NCBI RefSeq assembly: GCF_000972785.3
Contig: NZ_CP011253.3
Span: forward strand, 1,178,001 to 1,242,000
Length of the DNA: 64,000 bases
Source: Pandoraea oxalativorans
GTDB taxonomy: Bacteria > Pseudomonadota > Gammaproteobacteria > Burkholderiales > Burkholderiaceae
Reading direction: 5' to 3'
Shown: one piece after another, positions 62,183 through 64,000 of the stretch
How positions within the stretch are numbered: the first letter of the stretch is position 1
Layout of the letters: each line of letters opens with the position of its first letter
The notes under the pieces: model-generated
The model's database searches: none
What the model was told of the DNA's origin: nothing
The model's input: the letters and a program-made list of their open reading frames with translations, nothing else
Position numbers and translations under genes: made by a program

Positions 62183-62218
62183 AAGCTCTGAACCTCATAT
62201 AACTTGCGAAGTTGCTTG

Positions 62219-62239
62219 CCCGCCGTCGATGACGGCGGG
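62219..62239 (+). terminator. Hairpin after the gluconate permease gene
   Basis: CCCGCCGTC (62219-62227) pairs perfectly with GACGGCGGG (62231-62239) around GAT, 37 bp past the stop. There is no T-run, so it may be a weak or Rho-assisted terminator. It also marks the left edge of the cassette with different composition. Confidence 0.6.
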
Positions 62240-62357
62240 ACGCTTGCCTTGGGTATGAGGTGCGTCGCAGGGTCGAGCTGCCGATACCTTTCACGTGACG
62301 TAGCAAGGTACAATCTCGGCCATTCCGTTCGTCCTCCTTTTCTCATTGGAGCATGCA

Positions 62358-63566
62358 TTGGCAAAGGCGAAATCCCCTCGTTTGCAACTCAGCCAATTCG
62401 GCCCTATTCAGTCGGCAGACGTCTCCTTTGGCGATTTGACCGTCATCGTCGGTCCTCAGGCGACCGGCAAGAGTATTTTTCTCCAGACGCTCAAGCTGCT
62501 GATCGATCGCGATCAGATTCACGACATGTTCAAGCATCACAGCATGTCGTTTGATGGCGATGAGGACGCCTTTCTCGACGCTTTCTATGGTCGTGGGATC
62601 GCGGGTGGCTGGTCCGAACGATCCGCCATTTCGTTCGATGGGAAGGCTTGGAATCTGAGAGATTTGGCGCGTCCGAGCAAAGGTAAGACCCGCTATGAGC
62701 GCTTGTTCTACATTCCGGCCCAACGCGTGATGAGCCTGCCGAACGGCGTATCGCAGAACTTCGGTACCTTCAATTTCGGCGATCCGTATGTGCTTCGATC
62801 CTTCAGTGACGCTGTGCACGATCTGATCCAGAACGACTTCGCGACAATGCGCGAGTTGTTCCCTGCGCCGAACCGCTTGAACGAATCGCTTCGCGAGCCC
62901 ATCGCGGAGCAGTTGTTTGGCAGAACGAGCCTCGTTGTCGACAACAGTGAGTTCACCAAGCGCCTGGCACTTCAGGTGCCGGGGCAGGAGAAGCCGCTTG
63001 GGTTTCTTTCATGGTCGGCGGGGCAACGAGAATTCACGCCGATGTTGATGGGCTTGTATTGGCTGTGTACGTCCAAGACTAAACGAAAGTCGGGCAAGAC
63101 GGTGACGCAGACGATCGATTGGGTCGTCATCGAAGAGCCGGAGATGGGGCTGCACCCGAAGGGCATTCAAGCCGTACTGTTGCTGGTACTGGAGCTGCTG
63201 CGTCGCAACTATCGGGTCGTTCTGTCGACCCACACACCGGTTGTTCTGGAAATGGTGTGGGCGCTGCAAGAGCTCAAGAAAAATCAGGCAAGCGAAGCAA
63301 GCGTTCGAAAGCTGTTTGACTTGAGGTCTGTTCCGTACACGAAGGAACTTGCGACCAGTACTCTGGAAAAGGACTTCAAGGTCTACTACTTCGACCGGAA
63401 TTCGTCTGCGCGCGATATTTCGAATCTGGACCCGATGGCGGATGCCATCGAGGAGTCGGAGTGGGGCGGTGTGGTGGGTTTTGCGTCGAAGGCAAATGCG
63501 GCGGTTACAAATGCGGTTCACGCTGCACCCACCAAACAGACTCGCAAGAAGCGCGAGAATCAATGA
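62358..63566 (+). CDS. AAA/ABC-type ATPase (AAA15/OLD-like), candidate defence component
   Basis: A 402-residue ATPase. The TTG at 62358 has GGAG six bases upstream; another TTG at 62346 would add four residues. Walker A is GPQATGKS (residues 32-39). An ABC-type signature lies in LSWSAGQREFTP. Walker B is WVVIEEPEMGLHP. The switch His is in VVLSTHTPVVLEMV. No TOPRIM or other nuclease domain is seen, so it is not a full OLD nuclease or GajA. The stretch from 62358 on is clearly less GC-rich than the preceding genes. The downstream gene follows after 21 bp. Such ATPase-plus-effector pairs are typical of anti-phage systems; the function here is inference. Confidence 0.85.
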   Translation: MAKAKSPRLQLSQFGPIQSADVSFGDLTVIVGPQATGKSIFLQTLKLLIDRDQIHDMFKHHSMSFDGDEDAFLDAFYGRGIAGGWSERSAISFDGKAWNLRDLARPSKGKTRYERLFYIPAQRVMSLPNGVSQNFGTFNFGDPYVLRSFSDAVHDLIQNDFATMRELFPAPNRLNESLREPIAEQLFGRTSLVVDNSEFTKRLALQVPGQEKPLGFLSWSAGQREFTPMLMGLYWLCTSKTKRKSGKTVTQTIDWVVIEEPEMGLHPKGIQAVLLLVLELLRRNYRVVLSTHTPVVLEMVWALQELKKNQASEASVRKLFDLRSVPYTKELATSTLEKDFKVYYFDRNSSARDISNLDPMADAIEESEWGGVVGFASKANAAVTNAVHAAPTKQTRKKRENQ

Positions 63567-63587
63567 CACGCGACGCCGACTGATTCG

Positions 63588-64000
63588 ATGGCCAAGACAA
63601 AGAAAGCTGCTGAAAAGGTATCCGAAGCAACCGCCTTTTCCAAAGCGGCGAATGATGCTGACGTGACGCATCATCCAGGGAAGAATGCGCTGGAAGGCAA
63701 ATATCGGGACCTGGTGAGTTTGCATCCTCAGTGCAAACACACAGGGAGCGTGGACCTCGATGGTCACTTTCGCGAAGCTGAGCCAAACTCGCCGAGATGG
63801 GACTATGGTTTAGGGATCGCTACAGGCGGTCAAGAGTATGTTTTCTGGCTTGAGCCGCACCCCGCTTCCAGTACTGGCGAAGTTGCCAGCATGGTGCGCA
63901 AGGCGAAGTGGTTGCAAGCTAAGCTGGCCGAGCCGCCTTTCCGCAGGCTGAAAGAGATGACAAGAATGACGGCCGTTGGCGGGTATAAGCCGCTTCAATG
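63588..64000 (+). CDS. Partner of the ATPase, unknown family (3' end outside window)
   Basis: ATG 63588 opens a frame that runs off the right edge; 137 residues are visible. The first 45 are Lys/Ala-rich and probably unstructured (MAKTKKAAEKVSEATAFSKA). A folded part then begins (NALEGKYRDLVSLHPQCKHT, NSPRWDYGLGIATGGQEYVF, WLEPHPASSTGEVASMVRKA, KWLQAKLAEPPF). The spacing of Asp in WDYG and Glu in WLEPH loosely recalls a PD-(D/E)xK nuclease core, with His in place of Lys; this is a weak inference. It follows the ATPase by 21 bp, so they form one operon. I do not recognise the family. Confidence 0.7.
   Translation, partial: MAKTKKAAEKVSEATAFSKAANDADVTHHPGKNALEGKYRDLVSLHPQCKHTGSVDLDGHFREAEPNSPRWDYGLGIATGGQEYVFWLEPHPASSTGEVASMVRKAKWLQAKLAEPPFRRLKEMTRMTAVGGYKPLQ

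Follow-up and report, generated by a model that had tools for sequence, protein, structure and literature searches.

A mobile two-gene cassette of Pandoraea oxalativorans assigned by sequence to the candidate defence family PDC-M56

According to PMC12137116, pairs of an ABC ATPase and a nuclease make up a large family of bacterial immune systems that is still uncharacterised. In WonAB, both genes, the ATP motifs and a nuclease lysine are required, and infected cells stop growing and lyse hours later; its authors set it in a wider ATPase sensor-nuclease family and find it similar to PD-T4-4 (PMC12137116), which came from a functional selection for anti-phage genes (PMC9519451). Another system, a Septu, cleaves tRNA-Tyr (PMC13096335), and PMC12707154 presents PrrC and PARIS as guardians of restriction. 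Further candidates, the PDCs, are described as found by 'guilt-by-embedding' and mostly lacking experimental validation (PMC12988326). Here we describe a gene pair, A and B, at the right edge of a stretch of 64,000 nucleotides from Pandoraea oxalativorans (contig NZ_CP011253.3, positions 1,178,001 to 1,242,000; hereafter the window, from genome G000), which belongs by sequence to one of these catalogued PADLOC-DB defence candidates, PDC-M56 (the pair is called M56AB below). The genes and their conserved residues are as follows.

62358..63566, + strand: gene A, ABC-type ATPase (PDC-M56A), 402 amino acids from the TTG at 62358
62451..62474, + strand: Walker A of A, GPQATGKS, at least 90% conserved across 40 aligned sequences
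63015..63035, + strand: ABC signature-like block of A, SAGQREF, 7/7 columns invariant in the same alignment
63123..63143, + strand: Walker B of A, VVIEEPE, 6/7 columns invariant in that alignment, I variable
63225..63233, + strand: H-loop of A, STH, H invariant there, S and T nearly so
63588..64000, + strand: gene B, probable PD-(D/E)xK-like nuclease (PDC-M56B), continuing to window-equivalent 64106
63801..63803, + strand: D72 codon of B (in WDYG), invariant in 38 rows and in the distant rows covering D72
63852..63860, + strand: E89-x-H91 codons of B, both invariant in 38 rows and in the distant rows covering them
63900..63902, + strand: K105 codon of B, invariant in 38 rows and in the distant rows covering K105

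The assignment was made with PADLOC-DB 2.0.0. Gene A matches PDC-M56A at 2.3e-134 over residues 8-388 of 402. Gene B ends 106 bp beyond the window (L002:2588-3106 in G000); the full protein of 172 amino acids matches PDC-M56B at 5.7e-26 over residues 17-166 (7.9e-20 for the part within the window), the only one of 5027 PADLOC models that it matches at E<=1. An earlier note on this DNA, written from the letters alone, had considered the pair possibly undescribed, which these matches contradict. A literature search for PDC-M56, in a corpus that left bioRxiv preprints outside, gave no paper; as far as found, this defence candidate of a known kind is catalogued yet uncharacterised. What is added here for PDC-M56 is predicted folds, a probable nuclease motif, an empty site and, in type III-like restriction operons, a slot whose contents are exchanged.

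Gene A was read from the TTG at 62358, which is preceded by GGAG at 62348-62351, to a stop codon whose last base is 63566. Another in-frame TTG, at 62346, is an alternative start; the former is preferred because several relatives in the 40-sequence alignment open with M-A/P-K-x-K. The names Walker A, ABC signature-like, Walker B and H-loop are those we take to fit the conserved blocks. Pfam places A with AAA_21 (2.3e-14) and AAA_15 (1.2e-12), and the five families listed at E<=1 are AAA-type and DUF2813 only, TOPRIM being absent. The structure model of A is closest in fold to PtuA, and in sequence A scores 446.2 bits with PDC-M56A and 31.5 bits with the best PtuA model (among the best 25 of 105 PADLOC matches). 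In one related locus, A is broken into three frames beside an intact B (L019:8717-9968), probably a decaying copy.

Gene B starts at 63588 on the same strand, 21 bp after A. At E<=1 Pfam yields no family for the full protein, and neither Pfam nor PADLOC shows an HNH or TOPRIM family in it. Its profile found nothing meaningful among the sequences of solved chains (best E 0.4), and Foldseek with its model returned no match at E<=0.001. The predicted structure of B has a mean predicted local distance difference test (pLDDT) score of 91.3. In this model D72 sits directly ahead of strand 73-79, E89 and H91 fall within strand 82-92, and K105 within helix 96-113. The acidic pair D...E that the PD-(D/E)xK superfamily carries at its second and third core strands is present as D72 and E89 at strands 73-79 and 82-92, and the place of the lysine two residues past the glutamate is taken by the invariant H91. 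The E-x-K lysine is missing from other families of the superfamily too. B is probably a small nuclease that may have a restriction-endonuclease-like fold, with the candidate active site D72, E89 and H91, to which K105 perhaps also belongs. The E-x-H motif allows a simple test of this possible variant nuclease site.

The earlier note had described an ATPase without TOPRIM, followed after 21 bp by a partner of unrecognised family whose visible part did not match HNH or TOPRIM, and had asked for the sequence past 64000. Its description agrees with the present results on the completed gene, and its refuting condition of a partner from a housekeeping family did not arise, the completed B having no Pfam match.

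The two genes are closely linked. A scan of a genome collection for B gave 27 loci. In 25 of these the gene directly before B, on its strand, is A, and the pairing is therefore more than chance. The other two (L016 and L034) lack A, and the B of L034 is a fragment; among the paired loci, L019 has A split into three pieces, and L023 and L033 each have B split into two. In searches with A that scored up to four candidates per genome, A was found in 4/398 genomes of a phylum sample (E<=1e-20), with B adjoining in the same four, and in 3/399 genomes of an order sample (E<=1e-40), each with B adjacent. The genome of the window is counted in both samples, which together yielded six distinct genomes (G000, G041, G101, G245, G689 and G700); with G000 included, the pair is present in about 1% of either sample. 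The homologous ATPases found in both samples are linked to this partner; the earlier note had named a lack of such linkage as refuting its reading.

The family was also looked for outside chromosomes. Phage records contained no B at E<=0.01, and when viral contigs were scanned for B, 18 stretches fitted a pattern and none encoded a relative. Among plasmid records there was one carrier, an Opitutaceae plasmid, with B at 33% identity (E<=1e-3) and A at 46% (E<=1e-30). On this plasmid (CP007054.1) the B homologue beside A (L038:8240-8740) is unannotated in the record's gene table. The lone B-type gene of L016 (9950-10510) has an intact frame, is possibly a remnant, and lies 3' of a gene that resembles, as judged by eye, a LysR-type regulator. 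In G689, an HNH_2 protein is encoded downstream of a distant A-B pair (L094:6128-6886, a locus outside the 27).

In G000 the gene order is permease, A, B, a transposase of the ISL3 family on the opposite strand, and an Hsp70-family gene. The G + C content of A (55.4%) and B (56.1%) is lower than that of the upstream permease and the downstream Hsp70-family gene (65.7% each) and of the window (63.3%). B is present in 2/32 genomes of the genus, and the permease at an identity of at least 85% in 18/32. In both G000 and G406, A and B occupy the interval from the permease to the Hsp70-family gene; G406 is probably the same genome as that of locus L011 (Pandoraea commovens). Database proteins labelled Pandoraea sputorum match as well (A 96%, B 88%). 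In all of the other 16 Pandoraea genomes with this permease, the Hsp70-family gene comes next after the permease with aligned ends 91-142 bp apart, and tblastn found neither A nor B. Compared with three of these empty sites, the insert begins just past the permease stop and ends ahead of the inverted repeat in which the Hsp70-family gene terminates; it comprises A, B and a leader of less than 200 bp, and contains no recombinase gene. The inserted stretch and the neighbouring insertion sequence (IS) are located as follows.

62183..64000, + strand: window part of the inserted stretch, which ends near window-equivalent 64150, ahead of the Hsp70-family gene
L002:3170-4476 (window-equivalent 64170-65476): ISL3-family IS, downstream of B

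The pair is a compact mobile cassette, horizontally acquired and placed between housekeeping genes in Pandoraea. The lower G + C content relative to the permease had already been seen in the earlier note, and the horizontal transfer that it suggested agrees with this reading. The IS itself looks like a later insertion, since the 8 bp ATAAAAAA flank it on both sides in G000 and it is missing from the copy of Pandoraea commovens.

Restriction genes lie near the pair in 10 of the 27 loci; the loci were found through B and no random-locus control was used, so these figures are only descriptive. Five loci (L012, L014, L021, L022 and L029) have the order type III-like methyltransferase, A, B, helicase-type res. 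The methyltransferases of four of them (L012, L021, L022 and L029; 1103-1135 amino acids), which were the ones scanned, match one type III model, and that of L014 was found in two pieces. Two res proteins were scanned: for that of L029 a type III restriction model was hit (9.3e-16), and for that of L021 none at 1e-10, but Pfam ResIII at 1.5e-8. By longest-open-reading-frame coordinates, the stop of the L029 methyltransferase and the start of A share 4 bp, and res begins on the final base of B. In L023 only the end of a type III-like methyltransferase precedes A. Three loci (L013, L018 and L026) carry type I hsdR, hsdM and hsdS upstream, with two open reading frames (ORFs) intervening in L026. 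In L037 a PLD-helicase and an Eco57I-type methylase are encoded upstream, separated from the pair by one ORF.

The other 17 loci showed no restriction neighbours, some being on short contigs (L020 and L024 among them). Around 15 loci without adjacent restriction genes, 93 products of heuristically called ORFs (up to three upstream and four downstream) were scanned; L002, L011, L016 and L034 were left out. Among the best 25 of 35 PADLOC families matched, one product hit PtuA models, one a type IV restriction model and four mad3 (best 3.3e-30), and the best 25 of 79 Pfam families were mostly glycosyltransferases and metabolism. A tree was built from 31 A proteins, those of L002, L003, L004, L005, L089, L090 and 25 of the 28 loci L011-L038; it omitted L016 and L034, where A is absent, and L019, where A is in three pieces, and its rows named 'alone' include the short contigs L020, L024 and L005. 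The three type I loci group together in this tree. For the five type III-like loci the tree requires 3 changes, compared with 3.9 for shuffled labels (131/500 as low), which may reflect one gain and two losses.

The space between mod and res was then surveyed independently of B. A search with the res of L021 gave matches in 23/369 genomes of the class and 27 resulting loci, none with B and one with a weak A-like match (L098, 1.1e-5). Eight of the loci have a res of at least 46% identity over nearly the whole length, partial matches being excluded, and their slots hold the following.

L129: none, mod and res adjacent
L123: PD-T4-4-type ATPase and PD-T4-4_B-type partner (1.3e-9)
L125: PD-T4-4-type ATPase and a protein of 192 amino acids
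L127 (1150-5425): PD-T4-4-type ATPase and a second, OLD/AriA-like ATPase, with about 1.2 kb of unassigned sequence between them
L124: HEC-01A and HEC-01B
L128: AAA_21 ATPase and an unassigned protein of 195 amino acids; the contig ends and mod is not in view
L126: ThiF/JAB protein and DUF6527 protein before res; the contig ends and mod is not in view
L096: BrnT and PIN proteins, after the end of mod and before res

The 192-amino-acid partner in L125 (4977-5555) had no match in PADLOC or Pfam at the thresholds applied, and profile comparison of B with the slot partners of L123 and L124 gave a probability of 0.2% each. Since the contents of the gap differ between genomes, M56AB is one of several cargoes that it carries.

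The genes travel together between bacteria, lie in restriction operons in some relatives and form a catalogue candidate, and the pair is for these reasons probably an antiviral defence. The earlier note's proposal of a defence system agrees with this as a probable role. We consider it reasonably likely that A and B constitute a two-gene anti-phage (or anti-mobile-element) system with an ATPase sensor and a nuclease effector. By analogy with WonAB or Septu, A, as an ABC-type ATPase of the PtuA/OLD kind, would sense infection and hold or activate B; infection would alter the ATPase state of A, upon which B would cut nucleic acid (phage DNA, host DNA or tRNA) and halt phage growth, probably by abortive infection. 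Dimer and complex formation by A and B, the trigger, the substrate and the defence outcome are what we infer in this scheme, and the folds on which it draws are predicted.

A narrower role, which we regard as possible with rather modest expectation, is that of a restriction guard: the pair would watch a restriction-modification system and fire when phage proteins inhibit or bypass it, in the manner of PrrC at a type I locus. The position between mod and res in 5/27 loci and downstream of hsdRMS in 3/27 is consistent with this, as is the precedent of PrrC and PARIS as guardians (PMC12707154). The window copy, however, sits between the permease and the IS and Hsp70-family genes, and eight mod, res and hsd queries found no homologue in the 20 kb of L002. 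Guarding can therefore be at most one mode of action, and with 17/27 loci free of such neighbours (some on short contigs) a role as the sole trigger cannot be shown. In a tentative extension, the mod-res gap of this type III-like restriction family might serve as a dock for exchangeable cassettes of second-line immunity. M56AB would be one of these, its ATPase watching the restriction machinery and releasing a nuclease whose active site is E-x-H rather than E-x-K, and it could also live outside the slot, as in Pandoraea. Small, cleanly inserted and occurring both alone and within restriction operons, M56AB puts a direct question, namely whether such cassettes act alone, guard restriction enzymes, or both.

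A toxin-antitoxin or addiction module without antiviral role is improbable: the slot also accepts toxin genes, as the BrnT and PIN pair shows, whereas A has full ATPase motifs, unlike a usual antitoxin, and other cargoes match defence models. We think it quite improbable that a housekeeping DNA repair pair (a RecF/Rad50-like ATPase with a nuclease) chanced to move, given its rare and patchy occurrence (4/398 phylum genomes, 2/32 genus genomes) and the part of the family that lies within restriction operons. That the pair is Septu proper, with A as PtuA and B as an unrecognised form of the HNH protein PtuB, is highly improbable, for the resemblance of the A model to PtuA is outweighed by the bit scores given above, by the lack of an HNH family in B at E<=1 and by a predicted topology of B without an HNH-like arrangement.

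Compared with described systems, M56AB resembles PrrC in that part of the family is embedded in restriction loci, the window copy standing outside any, and differs from it in having two genes, PrrC being a single-gene anticodon nuclease (PMC12707154). The TOPRIM family of PARIS (AriAB), Gabija and OLD was not found in A or B: the C-terminal TOPRIM of OLD and GajA is absent from A, whose 402 amino acids match only AAA-type families and DUF2813 at E<=1, and in place of the AriB partner of PARIS there is a B that matches PDC-M56B only. As to Septu (PtuAB), the A model is nearest to PtuA in fold but A is far nearer PDC-M56A in sequence, and PtuB is an HNH protein, full B matching no HNH or PtuB model at E<=1. 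PD-T4-4 likewise joins an ATPase to a partner, and its ATPase type fills the same mod-res slot in L123, L125 and L127; A matches PD-T4-4_A at just 4.1e-11, full B does not match PD-T4-4_B at E<=1, and hhalign of B with the L123 partner gave the 0.2% noted above. WonAB and the operons of an OLD-ABC ATPase with a novel restriction endonuclease likewise combine an ABC ATPase with a small predicted PD-(D/E)xK-variant nuclease (PMC12137116). The nuclease-site lysine reported there for WonAB is K71, whereas B has a histidine at the E-x-K lysine position. No difference was found from PDC-M56, with which the window pair agrees in both models over nearly the full length and in gene order.
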